Source: Neisseriaceae bacterium
Lineage (GTDB): Bacteria; Pseudomonadota; Gammaproteobacteria; Burkholderiales; Neisseriaceae
Reading direction: 5' to 3'
Assembly: GCA_017991555.1 (NCBI GenBank)
Contig: JAGOQM010000006.1
Span: 124,001-188,000, forward strand
DNA: 64,000 nucleotides
The translations under genes and the position numbers were made by a program. The notes under the pieces were generated by a model, which did no database searches, was not told where the DNA came from, and saw only the letters and a program-made list of their open reading frames with translations. This document shows positions 53,606-58,068 of the stretch, piece by piece. Numbering within the stretch: the first letter of the stretch is position 1; each line of letters opens with the position of its first letter.

Positions 53606-53833
53606 CTAGGCGATGGCCGCAGCCGCGGCACACGCGCAGGCCGAAAACGCTGGAATGGTGGCCGCATCATCTAATTGCGCCCCAGGCAGGTAGGCACTGG
53701 CCGCATCCGCACAGCAACCACAACAGGTTGCCACGCCTAGACTGGCTTGTAAATCAGCCAGGCTGGTCGCGCCCGCACTGACTTCTGCTTTAATCTGCTT
53801 GTCAGTAATCCCGTTACAGATACAAATGTACAT
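53606..53833 (-). CDS. bfd: Bacterioferritin-associated ferredoxin Bfd
   Basis: A 75-residue [2Fe-2S] protein. The cluster ligands Cys4, Cys6, Cys38 and Cys41 align with E. coli Bfd. Cys37 and Cys40 are extra, and an Ala-rich tail with CAC (Cys66, Cys68) is unusual. Bfd docks on bacterioferritin and donates electrons through heme to release stored iron. Its promoter contains a Fur box, so it should be made under iron starvation, while the convergent bfrAB genes lack one. Confidence 0.93.
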   Translation of the reverse strand: MYICICNGITDKQIKAEVSAGATSLADLQASLGVATCCGCCADAASAYLPGAQLDDAATIPAFSACACAAAAAIA

Positions 53834-53869
53834 GAAGCTGCCCTTTGTTTCGTCTAATCAATGACGTTA

Positions 53870-53898
53870 ATAATACTGATTATCATTAATAACTGCAA
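53870..53898 (-). promoter_or_regulatory. bfd promoter with Fur box
   Basis: Minus-strand TTGCAG (53898 to 53893) and TATTAT (53875 to 53870) with exactly 17 bases between. TGATAATCAGTATTA (minus, 53885 to 53871) matches the Fur 7-1-7 consensus at 12 of 14 arm positions and fills the spacer and -10. Iron-Fur would block transcription. Confidence 0.75.
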
Positions 53899-54110
53899 GG
53901 GCTATTTTTAGCCTCATCAAAATCCCGCGTCAATCGTCTAGCTTAACTCATCTCATCCTATTATCAATCAGTTAAATCGCCCTGCGGTATTTTTCAACAT
54001 CATTTTATATTTTATCAATATTTCTTTAAAAAACACTTCCTTTTCAGGCCAAGACCCTTAATAATAAAGGCGTACAGCAGACAACCAATCACGCTTCAGG
54101 GGGACTCAAA

Positions 54111-54413
54111 ATGAAAAAATACCTACCCGCCTTATTGCTTGTGGTCTTATCTGGCGCCGTCATGGCGGCCGACGGTGGCAACATCGTTGTATCAGGTAAG
54201 GTCGTTGATCTTTCTTGCAGCCTCAACGTTGAAGCACCGGTTCGAAAACCTGCTGAAGCCGTGGCCATTGAAGCCTGCGCCGCCAACATCAAAGAACACA
54301 TGGTGGTTCATTTAGTCAGCCACGCCCACCTAGAAAAAGGCGAACTCGTCCGCCTAGACAATGCTAAAATCGAGCCCGCAAACGCCAAAGTGGTGTTTGC
54401 TGCCTACCTATAA
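54111..54413 (+). CDS. Very small secreted pilin-like protein
   Basis: A 100-residue protein with a signal peptide (about 1-19, ending VMA). The mature 81 residues show pilin hallmarks of chaperone-usher systems: an early strand IVVSGKVVDLSC ending in Cys36, a second Cys56, and a C-terminal strand AKVVFAAYL with a penultimate Tyr. Chaperone-usher subunits are normally about 150 residues, so the middle is missing or this is a minimal version. AGGGGGA lies 6 bases upstream. It lies 36 bases before a PapD-like chaperone gene. Confidence 0.6.
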   Translation: MKKYLPALLLVVLSGAVMAADGGNIVVSGKVVDLSCSLNVEAPVRKPAEAVAIEACAANIKEHMVVHLVSHAHLEKGELVRLDNAKIEPANAKVVFAAYL

Positions 54414-54449
54414 CAAAACCACAGGCCCAGAGCCGAGACCACGCACAAC

Positions 54450-55172
54450 ATGCATCGACTAATGGCCTATGCGGGGGCCAGCCTCCTTGGCTTAAGCTTG
54501 GCCCCCCTCTCCACAGCGAGCGTTACCCTGATGGGCACGCGCCAATTTCACTATTGCCACCAAGCCAAACAAACCCTGACCTTCTTAGGCGATTACTTAA
54601 AAGCCCCCAGCGTGCTCACCACCTGGGTCGACAAGGCACCCCACCAGCCCTTACCTCACAAGGCTGAGGCGCCATTTATGCTGCTACCCCCACAGTTTAA
54701 AATGCAGCCAAATACGCCCCAAAAAACCGTCCTTCTCTATACCGGCTCAGCCCAATCTTGCCCCAAAACGCAAGAAGCAGTGTATTACTTTTATTTTCTC
54801 GAAACCCCGTTAAGCACCCTCACCCAACCAGACACCCTGCAATATTTGAGCATGGTGAAGCTGTTTTTACGCCCCAACCACCTCACCCACAATCACCAAG
54901 GAGGCGGCGCTCAGCTCAACATTAGCCTCGATGCCACCCAAGCCTATTTACTGATTCACAACCCCAGCCCCTACCACGTCACCATCAGCCGCTGGCAAAC
55001 CCCAAGCGACCCTAAGCTGCTGGCCGAACCGGTCATGGTGGCCCCCAACAGCACCTTGCGCCACCCGCTTAGCCAGGCCGCCAAGGTCACCCTTGGCCAA
55101 TCCATTACCGTCACCGCTTTAGACGACTTCGGCAAGCCGCACCGTAGCCACCACCGTCTCAAACGGCCATAA
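54450..55172 (+). CDS. PapD-like periplasmic pilus chaperone (divergent, no usher nearby)
   Basis: A 240-residue protein with a signal peptide (about 1-24). It follows the PapD plan: strand A1 with Arg31 (LMGTRQF), PFMLLPPQFKMQP, strand G1 with Lys137 (LSMVKLFLRP), and domain-2 motif LLIHNPSPYHVTISRW. Arg31 and Lys137 match PapD Arg8 and Lys112, which grip the subunit C-terminus. The short F1-G1 loop suggests the FGS class. Two extra Cys (36, 104) occur. The next gene is gcvP, so no usher or adhesin is linked. Confidence 0.72.
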   Translation: MHRLMAYAGASLLGLSLAPLSTASVTLMGTRQFHYCHQAKQTLTFLGDYLKAPSVLTTWVDKAPHQPLPHKAEAPFMLLPPQFKMQPNTPQKTVLLYTGSAQSCPKTQEAVYYFYFLETPLSTLTQPDTLQYLSMVKLFLRPNHLTHNHQGGGAQLNISLDATQAYLLIHNPSPYHVTISRWQTPSDPKLLAEPVMVAPNSTLRHPLSQAAKVTLGQSITVTALDDFGKPHRSHHRLKRP

Positions 55173-55198
55173 AAAAACCCTGTCTCTCGACAGGGTTT
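55171..55198. terminator. Terminator of gcvP (bidirectional)
   Basis: AAACCCTGTC (55175-55184), loop TCTC, GACAGGGTTT (55189-55198). The minus strand has seven Us after the stem, so it mainly ends gcvP; on the plus strand the U-run is short. Confidence 0.85.
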
Positions 55199-55221: not shown

Positions 55222-58068
55222 TTAGTCTTCGTATTCAGAAGGGCTTGGGCAGCTACACATCAGGTTACGGTCACCGTAGACGTCATCGACGCGATTCACG
55301 GTTGGCCAGTACTTATTGGCCGCCACGAATGGCAATGGGTAAACTGCTTCAGCACGGCTGTATACATGAGTCCACTCATCTGAGATCACGTTAGCATGGG
55401 TGTGCGGTGCATGCACCAACGGGTTATCCTCTAGTGGCCACTCACCTGCTTGAACCTTCAACACTTCTTTTTTGATTTGCTTCATCGCCGCAATAAAGCG
55501 ATCGATTTCGGCTTGGCTTTCGCTTTCGGTCGGCTCAATCATCAAGGTACCCGCTACCGGGAACGACATGGTTGGGGCATGGAACCCAAAGTCCATCAAA
55601 CGCTTGGCGATGTCTACTTCGGTAATGCCCGTTTCCTCTTTCAACGGACGAATGTCAATAATGCATTCGTGCGCCACTTTGTCATTTTGGCCCGTATACA
55701 ACACTGGGTAATCATCTTTTAGATGGTGAGCAATGTAGTTGGCGTGTAACAAGGCCGCCTCAGTTGCTTGACGTAAACCCTTACCCATCATGGTGATGTA
55801 CATCCAGGTGATCGGCAAAATGCTGGCGCTGCCGTAAGGCGCGGCAGAAATGGCGCCAAACTCAGCGTCAAGACCGTCAATTGGGGCCACGATGTTGCTG
55901 GCCATAAACGGCGCAAGGTGTGCTTGCATGCCAATTGGGCCCATGCCTGGACCGCCACCGCCATGAGGAATACAGAAGGTTTTGTGCAGGTTCATGTGCA
56001 ACACGTCTGCGCCCACTTCGGCAGGCTGCATGATGCCCACTTGTGCGTTCATGTTGGCACCGTCCATGTACACCTGGCCGCCGTTTTCGTGAATGATGTG
56101 ACAAATTTCACGGATAGACGCTTCAAACACGCCGTGGGTTGATGGATAAGTAATCATCAACGCCCCTAGGTTGGCAGCGTGCTGAATGGCTTTGGCTTTC
56201 AAGTCTTCAACGTCGACGTTGCCCAAGTCGTCACAGGCCACGATCACCACTTTCATGCCAGCCATCTGTGCCGACGCAGGGTTAGTACCGTGGGCAGAAC
56301 GAGGAATCAAGCACACATCACGATGGCCTTCACCACGAGACTCGTGGTAGCGACGAATCACCACTAAGCCAGCGTACTCACCTTGAGCGCCTGAGTTAGG
56401 CTGCAACGACATGGCGTCAAAGCCAGTAATGGTTTTCAACTGTTCTGCCAAACCGTCCAACATGCCCATATAGCCTTCGGTTTGATCTTTAGGCGCAAAA
56501 GGATGCATGTTCGAGAATTCAGGCCAGGTAATCGGCAACATCTCGGCAGTAGCGTTCAGCTTCATGGTACAGCTACCCAATGAAATCATGCTGAAGTTAA
56601 GCGCGATGTCTTTGTTCTCTAAACGTTTTAGGTAGCGCAGCATCTCATGTTCAGTGTGATAGCTATTGAACACTGGGTGAGACAAGATGGCATCAGTACG
56701 CAATACGGCTTCTGGCAAGCGCGTTTCAACCTGATCAATGATGGCGTCTTTGCCCACGAACAGCTGGGTCAACTGATTCAACTCTTCTAAGCTAGATTCT
56801 TCGTGGAAGGCCACGGCCAATACGCTGTCTGACACTTGACGTAGGTTGTAACCAGCGGCCAAAGCGGCGGCGTACACGTCAGCAGCCTTGGCGCCTAAAT
56901 CTACCTGAACGGTGTCGAACAAGGCGTTATGCACCACTTTACCGCCGGCGGCCGTCACCGTATTGGCAAAAGCGCTGGCCAAGTTGTGAATGCGGTTGGC
57001 AATGCGCTTCACGCCTTCAGGACCATGGTAAACAGCGTACATACCGGCCAGGTTGGCCAATAATACCTGTGAGGTACAAATATTAGAGTTGGCTTTTTCA
57101 CGACGAATGTGCTGTTCGCGCGTTTGCAAGGCCATACGCAGAGCAGGCTTGCCGTTGGCATCAATCGACACCCCAATCAAACGGCCTGGCGCAGAACGCT
57201 TCATGCTGTCTTTAAAGGCAAAGTAAGCAGCGTGAGGGCCACCAAAGCCCATCGGCACGCCAAAGCGTTGGGTATTACCCAAGGCCACGTCGGCACCCAT
57301 TGCACCCGGTGATTTCAACAACACCAGGCTCATAATGTCAGCGGCCACACAGGCCAAAGCGCCTTTAGATTTAACCGCGGCAATCACGTCGGTTAGGTCA
57401 ACCACGTCGCCATCAACGCCAACATACTGGAATAAAGCACCAAAGTAGTCGCCTTCGGCCGCCTGAGCCAAATCGCCAATCACCAAATCAAACTCAAAGT
57501 ATTTGGCACGGGTTTGCATCACGGCTAGGGTTTGGGGCAACACACGGTTGTCGACGAAGAACTGGTTCGACTTAGAACGCGACACGCGCTTGGCCATCGC
57601 CATGGCTTCCGCAGCGGCGGTGGCTTCGTCTAGTAAAGACGCACCAGACACTTCTAAACCAGATAAATCAATACACACCTGTTGGAAGTTCAACAAGGCT
57701 TCTAAACGGCCTTGTGACACTTCTGCTTGGTATGGCGTATACGCCGTGTACCAACCAGGATTTTCCAACACGTTACGGGCAATCACATTAGGCAAACGGG
57801 TTGGATAGTAACCCATGCCAATGTAGCTTTTAAAAATCTTGTTTTTGCTGGCCATGGCTTTAAGCTTGGCCAATGCATCGGCTTCAGTCATGCTGTCTGG
57901 CAAACCGAACGGCTGCGGCATCAACACGCTGTCCGGTACGGTTTTGGCCACAAACTCAGCCATGCTGTTTAAGCCTAAATCGGCCAACATGCTGGCCTGT
58001 TCGGCAGCAGAGGTGCCAATGTGGCGACCGACAAACTCTTCATTGAAGAATAATGATTGAATACTCAT
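55222..58068 (-). CDS. gcvP: Glycine dehydrogenase (decarboxylating), P protein
   Basis: A 948-residue PLP enzyme, full-length single-chain P protein of the glycine cleavage system. The PLP-binding Lys is in [21 protein letters not shown], and [20 protein letters not shown] is a conserved N-terminal stretch. It decarboxylates glycine and loads the aminomethyl group on GcvH. AAGGG precedes the ATG. It is third in gcvT-gcvH-gcvP, separated from gcvH by a hairpin and a palindrome. Confidence 0.97.

Follow-up and report, generated by a model that had tools for sequence, protein, structure and literature searches.

The window analysed here, a stretch of 64,000 nucleotides, comes from a 3.2 Mb Neisseriaceae genome in 16 contigs (G000). 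Within it, two genes on the forward strand lie between a divergent bfd-like gene and a convergent gcvP gene (Table 1), where the open reading frame listing places them as the original prediction had. The first codes for a small, secreted mini-pilin-like protein (the mini-pilin) and the second for a PapD-type chaperone. No usher, second subunit or adhesin is present at the locus of the pair, and on the 244-kb contig that carries the window (C13) the pair's chaperone is the sole match to the chaperone, usher and pilin families, which bears out the absence of these components that had been predicted. A Fur-box-like sequence, GTTAATAATACTGATTATCATTAAT, is located at 53864-53892, between bfd and the pair; it is identical across three lineages, and bfd is probably the gene that it serves. 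Closer to the pair, at 54059-54065, lies another conserved block, TAATAAT, which could be the promoter of the pair itself.

Table 1. Features of the mini-pilin and chaperone locus, in window coordinates.
Feature	Position	Strand	Basis or remark
bfd-like [2Fe-2S] gene, upstream, divergent	53606..53833	-	ORF; adjoins the pair also in G002 and G001
Small secreted mini-pilin-like protein	54111..54413	+	ORF; 100 aa, 81 aa mature; Cys36 and Cys56; C-terminus EPANAKVVFAAYL
Putative signal peptide, residues 1-19, cleavage AMA|ADGG	54111..54167	+	Read from sequence
Pilin-type donor strand (N-terminal extension) G23-x-I25-x-V27-x-G29-x-V31, then first-Cys segment	54168..54206	+	
C-terminal segment EPANAKVVFAAYL, candidate chaperone-binding strand	54372..54410	+	Sequence conservation
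PapD-type (FGS-like) periplasmic chaperone, 240 aa	54450..55172	+	PapD_N and PapD_C over cut-off; AlphaFold2 model
Chaperone Gln82, replacing usher-contacting PapD Val56	54693..54695	+	Alignment
Chaperone Thr119-Pro120-Leu121, replacing PapD Ile93-Pro94-Pro95	54804..54812	+	Alignment
Chaperone donor strand G1, altered, up to anchor Lys137	54825..54860	+	Alignments
Terminator-like hairpin, between convergent chaperone gene and gcvP	55175..55198	no strand	Consensus scan: 10 pairs, T tract on minus strand
gcvP, downstream, convergent	55222..58068	-	ORF; adjoins the pair also in G001, G002 and G003

The pair is present in all four genomes examined of this Neisseriaceae genus (G000 to G003); two of the four are near-identical at the locus, and three distinct lineages are represented. 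The named relatives that carry it are river MAGs, labelled Neisseriaceae bacterium. The gene order bfr, bfd, mini-pilin, chaperone, gcvP is found in all of them (in G003, masking covers the bfd region), with a conserved site and 34-36 nt separating the mini-pilin and chaperone genes. The gap keeps the reading frame in G000, G002 and G003 but breaks it in G001, and a fused gene produced by read-through was therefore rejected. Beyond the genus, convincing matches to the mini-pilin are lacking in the remaining 79 family genomes. In a sample of 399 genomes from the order, neither the mini-pilin profile nor the chaperone profile picks up an orthologue, and the chaperone profile picks up none in 369 genomes across the class either. 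A search by sequence pattern through the named GTDB collection matched two MAGs of the genus only, and a plasmid search gave one weak match, to a fimbrial protein, that spans residues 1-42. Outside the genus, the chaperone that scores next best (G746, 83.5 bits) sits in a normal pilin-chaperone-usher operon and was set aside. Genus-specificity is the best reading of this distribution. The survey of relatives had been set beforehand as a refuting test; in none of them does the pair lie beside an usher. No usherless chaperone-pilin pair is described in the literature searched.

Relative to the window copies, orthologues are 56-83% identical for the mini-pilin and 56-71% for the chaperone at the protein level. 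Neither stops nor frameshifts occur in the pair across the four genomes. For the mature mini-pilin, the bootstrap medians of dN/dS are 0.18-0.36, and for the chaperone they are 0.13-0.26; in no comparison of either gene does any of 300 codon bootstraps reach 1. Purifying selection acts on both genes, and neither is decaying. The most conserved part of the mini-pilin is formed by its C-terminal 13 residues, which are identical at 13 of 13 positions between the most distant copies (G000 and G001), against 16 of 44 in the middle of the protein; between G000 and G002, the counts are 11 of 13 and 32 of 44. A permutation comparison of the C-terminal 13 residues with the middle gave 0.0006, for segment borders set after viewing the alignment. 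Conservation of this kind is the pattern expected of a chaperone-binding strand rather than proof of one, and makes the segment a candidate for that role.

The chaperone matches PapD_N with 49.2 bits and PapD_C with 45.8 bits (Pfam cut-offs 23 and 22.8), and its nearest solved relatives by sequence are CupB2 and YadV. In the AlphaFold2 model, the pLDDT of the chaperone domain is mostly 79-97, and VIA-align superimposes it onto YadV with a Z-score of 21.0 (200 residues, rmsd 2.2 Å), onto FimC with 20.9 and onto CupB2 with 20.8. The model confirms a two-domain PapD fold, and the assignment as a PapD-like chaperone thus holds by both family match and predicted structure. Arg31 and Lys137, which had been proposed as retained subunit anchors, indeed align with PapD R8 and K112; they are kept in all four orthologues, as are the equivalents of PapD Glu83 and Asp196.

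The usher-facing side of the chaperone is less well preserved. In P pili, PapC residues touch PapD P30, L32, P94, P95, P54, P55 and V56 (PMC8410936), and I93, L32 and V56 of PapD form the pilicide patch (PMC3706281). We compared these positions with those in 22 further chaperones of these genomes and their relatives; many of the 22 are close paralogues. At the position of Val56, all four orthologues have Gln, and all 22 others have Val, Ile, Leu or Met. At the position of Ile93 (residue 119 here), the orthologues have Thr, Thr, Thr and Ser, against Ile or Val in 22 of 22 others, and the second proline after it (PapD P95) is replaced by Leu or Val. The equivalents of P30, P54 and P94 are kept and L32 is Val; the usher-docking hydrophobic patch is therefore damaged in all four orthologues, reduced but not erased. 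The donor strand G1 is also altered: two alignments place a two-residue deletion in it with respect to other chaperones, while a third, ungapped alignment puts a polar Asp or Gln at the third donor position. Cys36 and Cys104 are common to the orthologues and absent from the 22 other chaperones; the alignment puts them in domain 1, close to its A1-B1 and E1-F1 sides. If the two form a disulfide, it would be an unusual feature in an FGS chaperone.

The partner had been described as a protein of 81 mature residues with the start and end strands of a pilin, two cysteines and a penultimate tyrosine. The size is correct, with the signal-like N-terminus as read from the sequence, and the two cysteines and the penultimate tyrosine are invariant in the four orthologues. 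The start strand stands. Mature residues 1-24 align to pilins from this genome and others with a z of 12 (0 of 300 shuffles as high), and hhalign against pilins of these genomes gives a probability of 95.6% over precursor residues 1-41. FimI has a donor strand of the form Gly-x-hydrophobic-x-hydrophobic-x-Gly-x-hydrophobic (PMC10673952), and Gly23, Ile25, Val27, Gly29 and Val31 of the mini-pilin match this spacing. By these comparisons, mature residues 1-24 are plainly a pilin donor strand together with the first cysteine. The end strand does not stand: in their alignment to pilins, mature residues 25-81 (57 residues) do not stand out from shuffled sequence (z 0.7), the last 20 residues reach a z of -0.6, and the last 10 score -2.4 on a pilin F-strand profile, on which pilins score 10 to 18 (leave-one-out) and the value of the mini-pilin end is reached by 11.5% of unrelated ORF ends. 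In the family-model search, the mini-pilin reaches the cut-off of no fimbrial or other family, PF00419 included; its weak N-terminal matches, to the PapG_N and LpfA models, fall below it.

Structure prediction gave little for the partner. AlphaFold2 modelled the mini-pilin alone, from four orthologues, with a mean pLDDT of 47.7. A tethered complex with the chaperone was modelled by reading the TAA stop codon as Ser across the in-frame 36-nt gap, with an alignment of 37 rows; full pilins added to this alignment spread over the chaperone columns and were dropped. In the resulting model, the pLDDT of the mini-pilin part is about 28-45, and donor-strand insertion can therefore not be claimed from it. 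The Foldseek and VIA-align results cover the chaperone part alone, and the missing pilin match there is uninformative about the partner. Three short pilin-like ORFs of 118-129 residues, from three unrelated families, have a similar layout (L071:1483-1848; L074:1243-1629, minus strand; L114:1327-1680, minus strand), with a pilin start strand, a penultimate Tyr and no Pfam match; that of L074 stands alone and that of L114 is divergent from a pilin-chaperone operon. They were rejected as relatives of the mini-pilin, the C-terminal part of which gives a z of 0.5 against shuffles.

Ushers are present elsewhere in these genomes. The host has seven ushers, each with its own chaperone nearby, ten PapD_N chaperones (nine besides that of the pair) and about 21 pilin-family matches. 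G002 and G003 also have seven usher matches each, and none of these ushers is near the pair; in the closed genome G002 the nearest is about 517 kb away. One G002 usher appears as two adjoining matches (C1:956109-957781, profile residues 1-160 and 160-548) and looks like a frameshifted gene; its likely counterpart in G003 (C91) is whole. The nearest in-genome match of the chaperone and the second-best of the mini-pilin are both found in one host operon (C8:175k, L100), in the order pilin, chaperone, usher, adhesin-like gene, second chaperone. The tree join to this operon has a support of 76/74. Descent of the pair from a pilin-chaperone-usher operon of this kind is plausible rather than demonstrated, because the join is weak and lies between long branches. 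This operon (L100:2259-8621) and another in the host (L104:2082-4283) are usher operons with two chaperone genes apiece; in the second L100 chaperone and its orthologue, Gln-His or His-Val replace the Asp-Arg before Glu83. About 134 kb along contig C8, a lone full-size pilin of 181 residues (L099:4347-4889) is 80% identical to the C8:175k pilin. It is flanked by a solute:sodium-symporter-like gene and a TonB-receptor-like gene, and usher and chaperone genes are absent from the surrounding 9 kb.

The best explanation, which we hold with middling confidence, is that the two genes code for an usher-independent, genus-specific chaperone-client pair derived from the chaperone-usher pathway. The pair probably has its role within the cell envelope and does not build a pilus, because it is far from ushers and the chaperone has lost part of its usher-docking surface. 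The damage to the usher patch is the strongest new evidence, and points to usher independence; its occurrence in four orthologues strengthens the earlier proposal of a stand-alone pair rather than a pilus operon. We count in favour of the explanation that an apparently altered G1 strand accompanies an altered client and that the partner is most conserved in its C-terminal 13 residues. Against it we count that the partner's C-terminus lacks the look of a pilin F strand, that the usher patch is reduced but not erased, that the pair is known from four genomes, and that the comparison covers 22 chaperones with many close paralogues among them. We infer a chaperone-client bond between the two proteins. 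Both proteins would be exported via Sec, after which the chaperone would bind the C-terminal strand of its partner, completing it through donor-strand complementation, with Arg31 and Lys137 anchoring the partner's C-terminus. The complex would be retained in the periplasm because the chaperone would dock poorly on ushers. The exposed donor strand of the mini-pilin might then act in the envelope, perhaps by capping pilin grooves of the seven unlinked systems; a free donor strand without a recognisable acceptor groove suggests such capping of other pilins. Our guess is that the partner is a periplasmic donor-strand cap or regulator. As a complete account, it is decidedly unlikely that a half-size donor-strand protein is retained in the periplasm by the chaperone and there caps or removes pilins of other systems with its strand, as a regulator and not as part of a pilus.

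The main rival explanation would have the mini-pilin as a specialised subunit, a terminator or anchor of the PapH or FimI kind, brought to an unlinked usher by its own chaperone. It shares the partner design: the mini-pilin has a full donor strand, G-x-I-x-V-x-G-x-V, and no recognisable acceptor groove. Donating a strand without such a groove is terminator logic, PapH and FimI being thought unable to accept another donor strand (PMC10673952), and ushers and pilins do exist in the same genomes. It conflicts with the usher patch, however: every orthologue has polar residues at positions 56 and 93, and we count a terminator role of this type as less favoured because that patch is damaged. Furthermore, every usher of the host already has a chaperone nearby, and PapH and FimI are full-size pilins within their own operons. 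We consider a terminator for an unlinked usher possible, if on the unlikely side. It is rather unlikely that the two genes are co-transcribed without being chaperone and client, the chaperone serving some other orphan subunit, such as the lone C8:134k pilin, and the small protein doing something else. The lack of pilin resemblance in the C-terminal 57 residues would fit this arrangement, as would a full-size pilin in whose surrounding 9 kb chaperone and usher genes are absent, but that pilin has no match of its own in the pair-bearing genomes G001 to G003 (the pilin itself was not a query), and the small protein retains a donor strand and always adjoins the chaperone. That the pair is left over from a duplicated pilin-chaperone-usher operon, has lost usher and adhesin and is now decaying is very improbable: the pilin-then-chaperone order of C8:175k, home of the close in-genome matches, and the weak tree join (76/74) favour the remnant idea of the original prediction as ancestry, weakly, but as decay it fails against purifying selection (dN/dS about 0.13-0.36) in a pair kept in three distinct lineages, free of stops and frameshifts and with a strongly conserved C-terminal motif.

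The accepted view of PapD-type chaperones is that they make up half of a chaperone-usher machine. A conserved chaperone that keeps its subunit side and has lost key residues of its usher side provides a natural separation of the two functions; the usher-independent pair would reveal whether donor-strand complementation serves purposes beyond pilus building, and the minimum size of subunit that such a chaperone can handle. With the FGS chaperones CupB2, YadV, FimC and PapD, the pair's chaperone shares the predicted two-domain fold (Z about 19-21), the anchor equivalent to Arg8 and Lys112, the PapD Glu83 and Asp196 equivalents and a short F1-G1 loop. It differs from them by alignment in the changes V56 to Gln, I93 to Thr or Ser and P95 to Leu or Val, at the PapD Arg68 position and the DRES motif (VL, TQEA), in its altered G1 strand and extra cysteine pair (C36, C104), and in having no linked usher. 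The partner resembles type 1 fimbrial pilins (PF00419) in its signal-like N-terminus, donor strand and first Cys; unlike them, it is only 81 residues long when mature, does not match PF00419, lacks detectable similarity past mature residue 24 and has no recognisable F strand. Like PapH and FimI, it could in principle give a strand without accepting one, but these are full-size and encoded in usher operons, whereas the partner is half-size and goes with an unlinked chaperone, the usher patch of which is damaged. The C8:175k operon has the same gene order and holds a relative of both genes; in contrast to the pair, it is complete with an usher and has a 181-residue pilin, a canonical patch and a canonical G1 strand. 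In sum, the pair is a genuine and conserved variation on a well-known system, and a somewhat surprising one.
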